DNA from: Paenacidovorax monticola | GTDB taxonomy: Bacteria; Pseudomonadota; Gammaproteobacteria; Burkholderiales; Burkholderiaceae_C | NCBI RefSeq assembly: GCF_014489595.1 | Contig: NZ_CP060790.1 | Coordinates: 4,154,001 to 4,218,000 of the forward strand | Direction: 5' to 3' | DNA: 64,000 nucleotides | Part shown: positions 3,481 through 50,073 of the stretch, piece by piece | How the letters are laid out: the number at the start of each line of letters is the position of its first letter | Position numbering within the stretch: the first letter of the stretch is position 1 | The notes under the pieces: model-generated | Seen by the model: the letters and a program-made list of their open reading frames with translations, nothing else | The model's database searches: none | Told to the model about the DNA's origin: nothing | Translations under genes and position numbers: made by a program

Positions 3481-3539
3481 TCAAATAAAATGGGCCCTGG
3501 CGCATGGAGGGCAAGCGCCAAGAGCTATAAAAAAGATAG
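3481..3539 (-). repeat. Dispersed intergenic repeat, copy 1 (reverse orientation)
   Basis: Read on the minus strand: CTATCTTTTTTATAGCTC, then TTGGCGCTTG, a spacer, ATGCGCCAGGGCCC and an AT-rich tail. This is the layout shared with the copies near 9.7, 17.5, 20.3, 24.8, 28.4, 39.9, 41.2 and 50.0 kb. It fills part of the 269-bp gap between the amino-acid transporter and mlaF. Confidence 0.7.
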
Positions 3540-3662
3540 TGGTTACAGGGTGTGGTAACAAGCAAACATGCGTGAATGTATGTATGGGTTACCATCGCAC
3601 CCCCTGGGGTTTGCCCTGAGCCACGACAATGCCCCTACGACCTTCATCCCCCGTCCCGCTGC

Positions 3663-4493
3663 ATGTCTGAGCACCCTCTTCTGGTGGAACTGCGCAATGT
3701 CACGTTCTCGTACGGCGAGCGCGTGATCCTGCGCGACCTCTCGCTGCAGGTGCCGCGCGGCAAGGTCACGGCGCTCATGGGCGCCTCGGGCGGCGGCAAG
3801 ACCACGGTGCTGCGCCTCATCGGCGGGCAGCAGCGCGCCCAGCAGGGCCAGGTGCTGTTCGATGGCCACGATGTGGGTGCGATGGGGCGCGACGCGCTCT
3901 ACGCCGCGCGCCGGCGCATGGGCATGCTGTTCCAGTTCGGCGCGCTGTTCACCGATATGAGCGTGTTCGAGAACGTGGCGTTTCCGCTGCGCGAGCACAC
4001 CGATCTGCCCGACGAGCTGGTGCGCGACATCGTGCTCATGAAGCTGCACGCCGTGGGCCTGCGCGGCGCGCGCGACCTCTCGCCGAGCCAGATCTCGGGC
4101 GGCATGGCGCGGCGCGTGGCGCTGGCGCGCGCCGTGGTGCTCGACCCGGAGCTGGTCATGTACGACGAGCCCTTCGCGGGGCTCGACCCGATCTCCCTGG
4201 GCACGGCGGCCCAGCTCATCCGCCAGCTCAACGACGCCATGGGCCTGACCACCATCCTCGTGTCGCACGACGTGGAGGAGACCTTCCGCGTGGCCGACCA
4301 TGTGATCGTGCTCGGCCCCGGCTGCGTGGCCGCCCAGGGCACGCCCGAGGAGGTGCGCGCGAGCAGCGATCCGCTCGTGCACCAGTTCGTGCACGCGCTG
4401 CCCACTGGCCCGGTTCCGTTCCACTACCCGGGCCCCGATGTGGCGCAGGACTTCGGTCCTTCGGGCGCCTCTTTCGGCGGGGGCAATCGATGA
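3663..4493 (+). CDS. mlaF: Phospholipid-trafficking ABC transporter ATPase MlaF
   Basis: Cytoplasmic ATPase (276 residues) of the MlaFEDB inner-membrane complex, which moves phospholipids between the inner membrane and the periplasmic carrier MlaC to keep outer-membrane asymmetry. Walker [10 protein letters not shown] is at residues 40-48, signature [14 protein letters not shown], Walker [15 protein letters not shown] and the switch histidine in LVSHDVEE. The ATG at 3663 is chosen; upstream codons in frame run into non-conserved sequence. First gene of mlaFEDACB; it overlaps mlaE by ATGA. Confidence 0.95.
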
Positions 4494-5272
4494 GCTGGTG
4501 GCGTCCTTCCCAAGTCGGTCTGGCGGTGCGCTGCCAGCTGGCGGGCATCGGCCAGGGTGCGCGCCTGCTGGCCCAGTTGCTGCGCCTCTTCGGCACGGCG
4601 TTCCGGCGCCCCCAACTCGTGGGCGACCAGATCCATTTCCTGGGCAATTACTCGCTGTCCATCATCGCGGTGTCGGGCCTGTTCGTGGGCTTCGTGCTGG
4701 GGCTGCAGGGTTACTACACGCTGCAGCGCTACGGCTCGGCCGAGGCCCTGGGCCTGCTCGTGGCGCTGTCGCTGGTGCGCGAACTGGGGCCCGTGGTCAC
4801 GGCGCTGCTGTTCGCGGGCCGCGCGGGCACCTCGCTCACGGCCGAGATCGGCCTCATGAAGGCGGGCGAGCAGCTCAGCGCCATGGAAATGATGGCCGTG
4901 GACCCGGTCAGCCGCATCCTCGCGCCGCGCTTCTGGGCTGGCGTGATCGTGATGCCGCTGCTCGCGGCCGTGTTCAGTGCCGTGGGCGTGATCGGCGGCT
5001 GGATCGTGGGCGTGCTCATGATCGGCGTGGACGGCGGCGCCTTCTGGGGGCAGATGCAGAACGGCGTGGACGTCTGGAACGACCTGGGCAACGGCGTACT
5101 CAAAAGCGTCGTGTTCGGCCTCACGGTGACCTTCGTGGCGCTGCTGCAGGGCTATGCCGCCAAGCCCACGCCCGAGGGCGTTTCGCGCGCCACGACGCGC
5201 ACCGTGGTCATGGCTTCGCTGGCCGTGCTGGGGCTGGACTTCGTCCTGACGGCCCTGATGTTCAGCATTTAG
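4490..5272 (+). CDS. mlaE: Phospholipid ABC transporter permease MlaE
   Basis: Integral membrane permease of 260 residues, the usual length for MlaE. Hydrophobic segments ([18 protein letters not shown] region, the [15 protein letters not shown] stretch, and the C-terminal [15 protein letters not shown]) fit the MlaE fold, and the family motif [12 protein letters not shown] is present. It overlaps mlaF by four bases, and mlaD starts 16 bases downstream. Confidence 0.95.
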
Positions 5273-5288
5273 AAAGAGACAGAGAACC

Positions 5289-5777
5289 ATGCAGCATTCG
5301 AAGAACGATGTCTGGGTCGGCCTGTTCGTGATGATCGGCGCCGCGGCGCTGGTGTTCCTGGCCCTGCAGTCGGCCAACCTGCTGAACCTGAATTTCCAGT
5401 CGGGCTACCGCATCACCGCGCGCTTCGACAACATCGGCGGGCTCAAGCCCAAGGCCGCCGTGCGCAGCGCCGGCGTGGTCGTGGGCCGCGTGGAGTCGAT
5501 CGCGTTCGACGACAAGACCTACCAGGCCCGCGTGACGCTGGCACTGGACGACCGTTATGCCTTTCCCAAGGACAGTTCGCTCAAGATCCTGACCAGCGGG
5601 CTGCTGGGCGACCAGTACATCGGCATCGAGCCGGGCGCGGACGAAAAGAACCTGGCCAGCGGCGACCTGGTGACCTCCACCCAGTCGGCCGTGGTGCTGG
5701 AAAACCTGATCGGGCAATTCCTGTACGGCAAGGCCGAGGAAAGCGGATCCTCGGCCCCCGCGGGGAGCAAGAAATGA
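5289..5777 (+). CDS. mlaD: MlaD, MCE-domain subunit of the phospholipid transporter
   Basis: Periplasmic MCE-domain protein of 162 residues anchored by one N-terminal membrane helix (about residues 9-30). The MCE domain follows, with the motif GYRITARFDNIGGLKPKA and the segment LLGDQYIGIEPG. MlaD forms the hexameric ring that channels lipid between MlaE and MlaC. It overlaps mlaA by ATGA, so translation is probably coupled. Confidence 0.95.
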   Translation: MQHSKNDVWVGLFVMIGAAALVFLALQSANLLNLNFQSGYRITARFDNIGGLKPKAAVRSAGVVVGRVESIAFDDKTYQARVTLALDDRYAFPKDSSLKILTSGLLGDQYIGIEPGADEKNLASGDLVTSTQSAVVLENLIGQFLYGKAEESGSSAPAGSKK

Positions 5778-48822: not shown

Positions 48823-48850
48823 CAGGGGTGCCCAGGGCGCTCCGATGCCT

Positions 48851-48880
48851 GCCCCGCCTCGCCGGGGCTTCGTGCTTTTC
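48851..48880 (+). terminator. Second of two duplicated terminators before obgE
   Basis: Stem GCCCCG / CGGGGC followed by TTCGTGCTTTT. Its 3' half (CGGGGCTTCG - TTTCAGGG) repeats that of the first terminator, so it looks like a duplication. obgE probably has its own promoter (TAAACT at 48911). Confidence 0.6.
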
Positions 48881-48925
48881 AGGGCCCGCGCCGGAAAGGC
48901 CGCTGTTTTGTAAACTGGATACCCC

Positions 48926-49996
48926 ATGAAGTTCGTCGATGAAGCCTATATTGACATTGCCGCCGGCGACGGTGGCAATGGCTGCGTCTCGTTCAGGCAC
49001 GAGAAATACAAGGAGTTCGGCGGCCCGAATGGGGGGGATGGCGGGCGTGGCGGCCATGTCTACGCGGTGGCTGACCCCAACCTGAACACGCTGGTGGACT
49101 ACCGCTATTCGCGTCGCCACGAGGCCAAGCGCGGCGAGCATGGCATGGGCTCCGACATGTTCGGCGCTGCGGGGGACGACATCACGCTCAAGATGCCCGT
49201 GGGCACCATCATCAGCGATGCCGAAACCGGCGAAGTGCTCTATGAACTGCTCACGCCCGGCGAACTGATCACGATCGCCAAAGGGGGCGACGGCGGCTTC
49301 GGCAACATGCGTTTCAAGAGCGCCATCAACCGCGCACCGCGCCAGAAGACGCCGGGCTGGCCCGGCGAGCGCAAGAACCTCAAGCTCGAGCTCAAGGTGC
49401 TGGCCGATGTGGGCCTGCTGGGCATGCCCAATGCGGGTAAGTCCACTTTCATCGCGGCTGTGTCGAATGCGCGGCCCAAGATCGCCGACTACCCTTTCAC
49501 GACGCTGCACCCCAATCTGGGCGTGGTGCGCGTGGGGCCGGAGCAGAGCTTCGTGGTCGCCGACATCCCGGGGCTGATCGAGGGGGCGTCCGAGGGGGCG
49601 GGCCTGGGTCACCAGTTCCTGCGCCACCTGCAGCGCACGCGCCTGCTGTTGCACATCGTCGATCTGGCACCGTTCGACGATGCAGTCGATCCCGTAGCCC
49701 AGGCCAAGGCCATTGTGGGCGAGCTCAAGAAATACGACGCCGATCTGTACGACAAGCCGCGCTGGCTGGTGCTGAACAAGCTCGACATGGTGCCTGCCGA
49801 CGAGCGCGCGGCCAAGGTCAAGGACTTCGTCAAGCGCTTCAAGTGGAAGGGGCCGGTGTTCGAAATCTCTGCGCTCACACGCGAGGGTTGCGAGCCGCTG
49901 ATCAAGGCCATTTACCAGCATGTGCATGGGCAGCAGCAGGCCGAGCAGGTGCATGTGGAGGTCGATCCCCGCTTCGCGGGCGATGCCCCGGCGTAG
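48926..49996 (+). CDS. obgE: GTPase Obg (CgtA)
   Basis: Ribosome-associated GTPase of 356 residues needed for 50S maturation and linked to ppGpp. The glycine-rich Obg fold covers residues 1-158 ([26 protein letters not shown]). G1 GMPNAGKST is at about residues 166-174, with [16 protein letters not shown] (G3) and NKLDM (G4). A TAAACT hexamer ends 9 bases before the ATG and no clear ribosome site is seen, so the leader may be only a few bases. Confidence 0.97.
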
Positions 49997-50018
49997 GTAG
50001 CTTCAGTCTCGTTTGTTC

Positions 50019-50073
50019 GCTATATTTTTAATAGCTGTTGGCGCTTGAAAGGCAAGCGCTGCGGCCTCAAACA
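50019..50073 (+). repeat. Dispersed intergenic repeat, copy 9
   Basis: GCTATATTTTTAATAGC, TGTTGGCGCTTG, AAAGG, CAAGCGCTGCGGCC and TCAAACA. This is the cleanest copy: AT hairpin (GCTAT / ATAGC) then GC hairpin (GGCGCTTG / CAAGCGCT). It lies between obgE and proB. Confidence 0.8.

Follow-up and report, generated by a model that had tools for sequence, protein, structure and literature searches.

A REP-like dispersed repeat of Comamonadaceae-type Burkholderiales with a shared frame and genome-specific hairpin cores

A short repeat beside housekeeping genes

We analyzed a stretch of 64,000 nucleotides from the Paenacidovorax monticola genome (one contig, C1, of 4.68 Mb), here called the window (C1:4154001-4218000). 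Between and at the ends of its genes, among them murA, hisH, tatC, pdxA, argJ, obg and proB, lies a dispersed repeat of about 67 nt containing two hairpins, which the initial annotation had described as recurring about ten times, with nine listed copies of one plan. The dispersed repeat near housekeeping genes is real, and it displays an unusual split: its frame is shared among genomes, whereas the core of its second hairpin is genome-specific. Below, genomes of the family are cited by G numbers and sequence stretches by L numbers.

We built a covariance model, R1, from 31 copies, three of which lie in the window. Searching the window with R1 at E≤0.015 returned ten distinct places, of which seven are strong (Table 1). 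Seven of the nine annotated copies score 34.9 to 55.8 bits and two are decayed (16.4 and 14.0 bits); direct reading of all nine stretches confirmed the common plan, and the model supplied the tenth place, a weak copy absent from the annotated list. Pattern searches gave the same picture. A loose pattern, ATAGCT.{0,8}GCGC.{2,20}GCGC, matches six times in the window, compared to a mean of 0.24 over 100 dinucleotide shuffles. The strict core pattern, ATAGCTN{2,6}GCGCN{4,16}GCGCT, matches 58 times in the whole genome (28 forward, 30 reverse), its reversed control never; the repeat thus far exceeds both the nine annotated copies and its shuffled and reversed controls. Although the strict pattern permits 21 to 37 nt, 54 of the 58 matches are exactly 30 nt long. 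The R1 search of the whole genome yielded at least 150 matches and, this being a lower bound, copy numbers were estimated from sampled stretches. At a cut-off of 25 bits, 464 kb of P. monticola, window included, contain 38 distinct copies and 400 kb of genome G014 contain 78, densities that scale up to estimates of about 380 and 840 copies per genome, respectively. Matches overlapping a better match on the opposite strand were excluded, several analyses were confined to copies of exactly 62 nt, and score cut-offs ranged from 25 to 36 bits across analyses. Genes were called by a rough GC3 rule, for which stops are reliable and starts unreliable.

Across 160 genomes of the family, the strict pattern is present in 37, occurs three or more times in 26 and reaches a maximum of 344 in one, while the reversed control stays at two or fewer per genome. 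Named carriers include Acidovorax, Giesbergeria, Paracidovorax, Polaromonas, Rhodoferax, Comamonas and Ottowia. These matches, together with the copies read in relatives, bear out the mention in the initial annotation of similar elements in other Comamonadaceae. A 300-genome sample of the order contains 12 genomes with strict matches, four of the nine within the family and eight of the 291 outside it. Outside the family, where only the strict pattern and no element variants with other cores were sought, the eight genomes hold one or two matches each and the control matches in 18 of 291, so that strict matches there are at chance level. Phage records gave no match to the one copy searched.

Table 1. 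Copies of the repeat in the window
Position	Strand	R1 score	Genomic context
3483..3544	-	34.9 bits	Between two + strand ABC-transporter genes (ABC_tran), antisense to both
9680..9741	+	37.8 bits	Between a BolA-like gene and murA (profile match); begins ~4 nt past the bolA stop
11674..11735	+	18.0 bits, E 0.0008	Weak copy; directly past the stop of an open reading frame ending at 11675
17472..17533	-	41.8 bits	Antisense, upstream of hisH (start 17516, crude call)
20330..20391	+	16.4 bits, E 0.0026	Decayed copy; precedes a hisI-like gene (PRA-CH)
24791..24852	-	35.3 bits on -, 28.8 on +	Between convergent tatC and a trypsin/PDZ protease gene (Trypsin_2/PDZ)
28401..28462	+	54.2 bits (training)	Between a YbgI/Nif3-like gene and pdxA; begins ~2 nt past the stop
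39866..39927	+	54.2 bits (training)	End of argJ, overlapping its stop codon; ATPase-like gene next
41205..41266	+	14.0 bits, E 0.015	Decayed copy; overlaps the end of a NUDIX gene
50015..50076	+	55.8 bits (training)	Between obg and proB; orthologous copies in several genera

Shared frame and genome-specific hairpin core

The anatomy of the element was read from 63 G014 copies aligned with 40-base flanks. Conservation runs from position 2 to about position 68 and ends sharply on both sides, with none in the 40-nt flanks. The parts follow a fixed order: an AT-rich hairpin (H1), AGCT, a GC hairpin (H2), GGCC and a T- or A-rich tail. H1 has the consensus GATTGCTAT-loop-ATAGC, in which the tag ATAG is conserved at 84% (A17), 85% (T18) and 100% (A19 and G20), and the AGCT that follows H1 is conserved at 98-100%. 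ATAG is the consensus tag in both P. monticola and G014 copies, GTAG occurring in a minority only. H2, exemplified by GCGCTTG-loop-CAAGCGC, forms a core of about 30-36 nt inside the 67-nt unit; the tail after GGCC reads like GATTTGA or AAAATGA, and the GC content of the element is mostly 40-60%. Folding as single-stranded DNA yields both H1 and H2 for the obg-proB and nif3-pdxA copies and a partial or different structure for four others, with z-scores of the six ranging from -1.1 to -2.5; for the decayed copy before the hisI-like gene, folding gives H1 arms GCTCCTG/CAGGAGC. RNAalifold predicts only a 5-pair H2 stem on 31 copies, and a stem-pair test gave no support for a third hairpin in the tail. 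Tails of G014 are T- or A-rich beyond what independent columns produce (11 A-runs; shuffled mean 3.2, maximum 8), and those of P. monticola show a small effect (two A-runs vs a shuffled maximum of 2).

H1 and the tail follow one consensus across the sampled genomes, and the H2 core is genome-specific, even at the orthologous site between obg and proB. In six genomes, compared with at most 20 copies each and with R1 trained on P. monticola (R1 matches used: G062, 20 of 67; G145, 20 of 33; G069, 11 of 16; G005, 9 of 18), core similarity was 0.573 within vs 0.467 between genomes (0 of 500 permutations). The tail gave 0.492 vs 0.486 (77 of 500), and H1 a slight difference of 0.671 vs 0.662 (18 of 500). 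Among named genomes, the core again stood out, with 0.576 within vs 0.511 between (0 of 2000), as compared to 0.655 vs 0.675 for H1 and 0.459 vs 0.456 for the tail. The obg-proB gap itself holds an R1 match in 15 of the 62 gaps read, every best match being in the obg sense; no R1 match was seen in those of Limnohabitans, Variovorax and Ramlibacter. Cores at this site, taken from 11 genomes, resemble other copies of their own genome (0.591) more than copies of other genomes (0.510; 5 of 20000), their similarity to their own orthologues being 0.546. H1 at the same site shows no own-genome likeness (16370 of 20000) and the tail a weaker effect (129 of 20000). Shuffling the letters inside the cores abolishes the difference (0 of 3000 shuffles), so composition is not the explanation, and leaving out one genome at a time keeps it at 0.068 or more. 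These comparisons suggest that the hairpins of a genome change in concert while their sites stay fixed.

The H2 loops add a second peculiarity. Among 54 P. monticola, 96 G003 (of 115 strict matches) and 67 G014 copies, 5-nt loops match as reverse complements in 17, 41 and 34 cases, compared to 0, 1 and 0 for plain reversal and 0, 2 and 0 for the complement. At one orthologous gene end, the loop is GTCCATC in G087 and TATGGGT in G003, as if the loop had been inverted at its site; the divergence of the two sequences leaves this in doubt. Hairpin-associated small inversions of chloroplast DNA are similarly reported to present a palindrome loop in both orientations; here, the two orientations occur among scattered copies of a repeat family in bacteria.

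Genome-specific cores could also arise if each lineage had amplified a different master copy, with the frame under constraint, fresh insertions landing at old sites and no exchange of cores. Such amplification accounts for the core similarity within genomes, and a function in recognition could hold the frame constant; lineage-specific masters or re-insertion are a possible source of the pattern. At obg-proB, however, all 15 best matches have the obg sense, as one old insertion would leave them, and still the cores follow the genome. Because orientation is mixed elsewhere, repeated same-sense insertion at this site is unlikely, and we hold amplification of masters to be a credible explanation of clearly less than even probability.

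Orthologous sites, gene context and stem pairing

Two further sites inform on the age of the family. The argJ-ATPase site is occupied in the window and in three of 31 relatives (L185 and L188 by R1, L184 by eye), ambiguous in L198 and empty in the other relatives read. The third site is the end of a gene whose protein ends in VPGT.R.RVL and which we take to be serA-like. Querying 28 genomes gave some match in 25, a long match in 18 and 13 readable sites including that of G003, and in four of these 13 the element lies directly past the stop codon. In G157, which belongs to the same genus as the carrier G003, exactly 79 bp are absent at this gene end, beginning one base past the stop and without a target duplication. 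Empty sites in relatives, which the initial annotation had proposed to look for, are seen as presence and absence at orthologous gene ends. Defined ends and a clean empty site would also be expected of a classical miniature inverted-repeat transposable element, that is, the remnant of a deleted insertion sequence, bounded by terminal inverted repeats and flanked by a target duplication. The consensus ends of the repeat, however, do not form an inverted pair, and no target duplication is seen at the single junction read, of uncertain polarity, which makes such an origin very improbable.

Ten places of G003, from two stretches, were compared with G157: seven have recognisable counterparts, one corresponds to the empty site, another has diverged too far for a call and the last gave no alignment. 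In G161, orthologous sites hold recognisable counterparts of two G014 copies. The repeat family is old, with many copies common to several genera. The closest pair among 63 G014 copies is identical at 53 of 68 positions (column-shuffled range 49-56), and that among 24 P. monticola copies at 46 (range 42-51); there are no recent near-duplicates beyond chance in these samples and hence no sign of present mobility.

Copies often lie directly at gene ends. In the window, eight of ten start no more than about 25 nt from a sense stop codon, and two of these eight overlap it. The NUDIX gene takes its TAG stop at 41224 from the ATAG of its decayed copy; in relatives L185, L188 and L224, the same gene end is occupied by copies scoring 26.5, 39.8 and 41.2 bits, respectively. 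Orientation is mixed, with 10 tandem-sense, 5 tandem-antisense, 7 convergent and 3 divergent copies in P. monticola and 15, 12, 13 and 9, respectively, in G014; these counts omit 13 P. monticola and 28 G014 copies that overlap crude gene calls (41 of 116 copies do so) and one at a stretch edge. In some proB copies, an A-type tail appears to include the start codon. By reading, the right end of the element in the obg-proB gaps of L188, L206 and L225 is TAGAGGCCAAAATGAC, which would provide proB with a ribosome-binding-like sequence plus its start codon.

Location beside stop codons and retention at orthologous sites would also fit an RNA element under selection, such as a 3'-end hairpin, attenuator, translation leader or intrinsic terminator, instead of a relic of mobile DNA. 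Two further observations point the same way. At two pairs of the G003 stem, T.G far exceeds C.A (34:3 and 36:5), a bias tolerable in a folded strand and less marked in P. monticola (11:6 and 9:6). Across genera at obg-proB, eight pairs have changed on both sides, compared to a shuffled mean of 5.1 (11 of 500); the 18-row alignment of this site (A4) comprises the 15 R1-positive gaps, L194 and L206 (found by pattern) and the window. The other measures there lie closer to their shuffled values, with 71.1% of cells pairing vs a mean of 69.5% (84 of 500) and a covariation score of 0.131 vs 0.113 (80 of 500), while slid structures pair in 20-49% of cells. Within genomes, stem pairing in 70 G014 copies equals independence, with no covariation, and in 37 P. 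monticola copies, of some 30 pairs examined, two stand out weakly, at 12 of 1000 shuffles. The covariation by which the initial annotation had proposed to test its reading is nearly absent within genomes and only moderately indicated between genera by the double changes. The independent pairing in G014, the mixed orientation, a fold energy that is independent of gene context (20 convergent vs 54 other copies, permutation 0.32) and the lack of any matching Rfam family speak against a selected RNA element, which we consider unlikely. Judged by their sequences, the stems look like inherited palindromes in decay, with at best weak selection on pairing.

A general role as intrinsic terminator finds no support, given that fold energy lacks context dependence; single copies do fit. 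The copy between tatC and the protease gene, which counts in favour of an RNA element, has a long perfect stem followed by seven T (fold -35.3 kcal/mol) and reads as a strong intrinsic terminator.

A candidate transposase and related repeat families

The initial annotation found no transposase, which holds for the 18 window proteins scanned, other window genes having been left out. A search aimed at PF01797 (Y1_Tnp), and at no other transposase family, revealed one gene in the P. monticola genome, at C1:4147755-4148453, 5.5 kb before the window; the gene downstream of it is presumably gltB. The encoded protein of 233 aa contains NHLH, WE and YIDLNP motifs, and its relatives are flanked by the inverted sequences GGGGTCAG/CTGACCCC. 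By motifs, length and these terminal inverted repeats (TIRs), it fits the TIR-associated tyrosine transposases (TIRYT), or subclass 2.1 of the transposases associated with repetitive extragenic palindromic (REP) sequences (RAYT). Members of this subclass (group 1) have an HUH and a Y...NP motif, measure about 238 aa and carry TIRs of the motif GGGGWSAS, which the flanks of the relatives match (PMC3733652, PMC6006769). The dispersed element itself is not the TIR.

A relative of the Y1 protein (E≤1e-10) is present in 152 of the 160 family genomes, with identities of 34 to 75% among the matches listed. Of 12 family genomes with a close relative and no strict pattern, 11 have an R1 match and eight have 4 to 67; G059, G017 and G160 have one or two each, those of G059 and G017 being unlike the element. 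Among six genomes chosen for a distant relative, five have no R1 match at E≤0.001 and so provide a check on the model. In the sixth, G094, which is otherwise free of the repeat, two copies lie 6 kb from each other (L093 C1:715208 and L112 C1:721316) with nearly equal left flanks, perhaps a transferred or duplicated region.

Copies of the repeat also occur next to the transposase genes. In six of 30 loci, an R1 match (E≤0.01) lies within about 100 nt of the Y1 relative, five on the 3' side in inverted orientation, each within about 70 nt, and one on the 5' side. By eye, copies adjoin the gene in G014 and G086 and a decayed one does so in P. monticola, where R1 gives no significant match beside it; flanking by copies on both sides was seen at none of the 30 loci. 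A motif, (A/G)TGTCCC(C)AATTA, is conserved 3' of the Y1 relatives in 38 of the 42 flanks read. When the flanks are anchored on it, which leaves out 4 of the 42, a GCT precedes TGTCCC at a constant distance in 23 of 38, no more than a suggestive link between element and transposase. By analogy, the CT inside the invariant AGCT may be compared with the CT beside the hairpin at which E. coli TnpAREP is reported to cleave (PMC8266576).

On this evidence, we consider it probable, though far from assured, that the repeat is a REP-like, non-autonomous palindromic family of Comamonadaceae-type Burkholderiales that was spread by a Y1 transposase and whose H2 cores are exchanged. Copies would have moved as hairpins of single-stranded DNA on which a Y1 (HUH) tyrosine transposase acted in trans. 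The plausible mobiliser, and the most likely one, is the product of the single-copy TIRYT/RAYT-like gene near the window. They would have settled directly past stop codons, the least harmful place, and then been inherited vertically. The H2 hairpin would still be undergoing exchange or rewriting between copies in either orientation, whether the transposase or template switching within the palindrome is responsible, leaving cores alike within a genome, loops flipped and the frame unmoved; single copies may now act as stop codon, start-codon region or terminator. The initial idea of a small non-autonomous or REP-like element is supported by high copy number, near-fixed length, sharp edges and presence or absence at orthologous gene ends, and is amended in that a transposase exists outside the window and the stems are nearly without covariation within genomes. 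A bolder version, in which hundreds of static frames, vertically inherited next to stop codons, have their cores excised and exchanged as single-stranded DNA, in either orientation, by a domesticated Y1 transposase from a subclass credited with no REP partner, would mean that the cores of a genome evolve together and the frames do not; we regard such genome-wide rewriting as distinctly improbable.

Several observations weigh against spread by the Y1 transposase with exchange of cores. Transposase relatives occur in 152 genomes and strict repeats in 37 only, so that presence of the one does not track the other. Copies adjoining transposase genes may be no more frequent than the general copy density would give, an unanchored weight matrix of the element's left end is not significant in 42 3' flanks (2 of 42 at p≤0.005), and the GCT-TGTCCC flank module is 1 nt longer than H1 of the element. 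Subclass 2.1, moreover, is described as having no REP-like neighbours (PMC6006769). The own-genome effect at obg-proB is thin, with a shuffle-null maximum of 0.080 vs 0.081 observed; the 79-bp empty site may be a loss, because three other genera carry a copy there; and the lack of recent near-duplicates gives no sign of present mobility.

Among known repeats, the element most resembles REPs of the GTAG and CGTC super-families linked to RAYT/TnpAREP. These are short imperfect palindromes of high copy number, mostly located after genes and occasionally inside them, with an unpaired tag at the hairpin foot and a frequency that varies by species (PMC3733652, PMC8266576). The element is a high-copy, mostly intergenic palindrome in the sense of the 20-50 nt REP definition. 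It differs in its tag (ATAG, not GTAG/GTGG or CGTC), in the extra AT-rich hairpin before the tag that brings the total to about 67 nt, and in that no transposase gene was seen with REPs on either side, as in a REPtron. Unlike REPINs, it consists of single units without conserved flanks in 40 nt, not of two inverted REPs. We also considered the published Betaproteobacterial repeat element (BRE), a small dispersed intergenic repeat counted in Comamonadaceae genomes too. The full-length Bordetella BRE measures 75-91 bp with a mean of 69% GC, is often in tandem and reaches at most 29 copies per genome (PMC3110155). Compared by published description and not letter by letter, length, GC content, tandem arrangement and copy number (here up to 344 strict matches) all differ, and identity with BRE is extremely unlikely. 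In the open-licence literature searched, we recognised no description of the repeat.

The family adds a large set of repeats to the common environmental genera Acidovorax, Polaromonas, Rhodoferax and Comamonas, and it could supply the REP-less transposase subclass 2.1 with a substrate. Its orthologous sites provide many natural replicates in which possible core exchange and loop inversion can be followed. The element also marks plasmid DNA of likely Comamonadaceae origin. A 54.5-bit copy lies on pADP-1, the conjugative IncP plasmid of Pseudomonas sp. ADP (NC_004956.1, ~33900-33961; L313:1488-1549), between IS1071 transposase and amidohydrolase genes, which suggests that this segment derives from a Comamonadaceae genome. 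A 40.1-bit copy is found on a plasmid of Rhodoferax antarcticus (NZ_CP019241.1; L314:744-805), a member of a carrier genus. Finally, G003 contains a different repeat of about 170 bp (L288:17588-17759) with the ends AGAGGCTG...CAGCCTCT, of which G157 holds at least three more copies at 82-85% identity.

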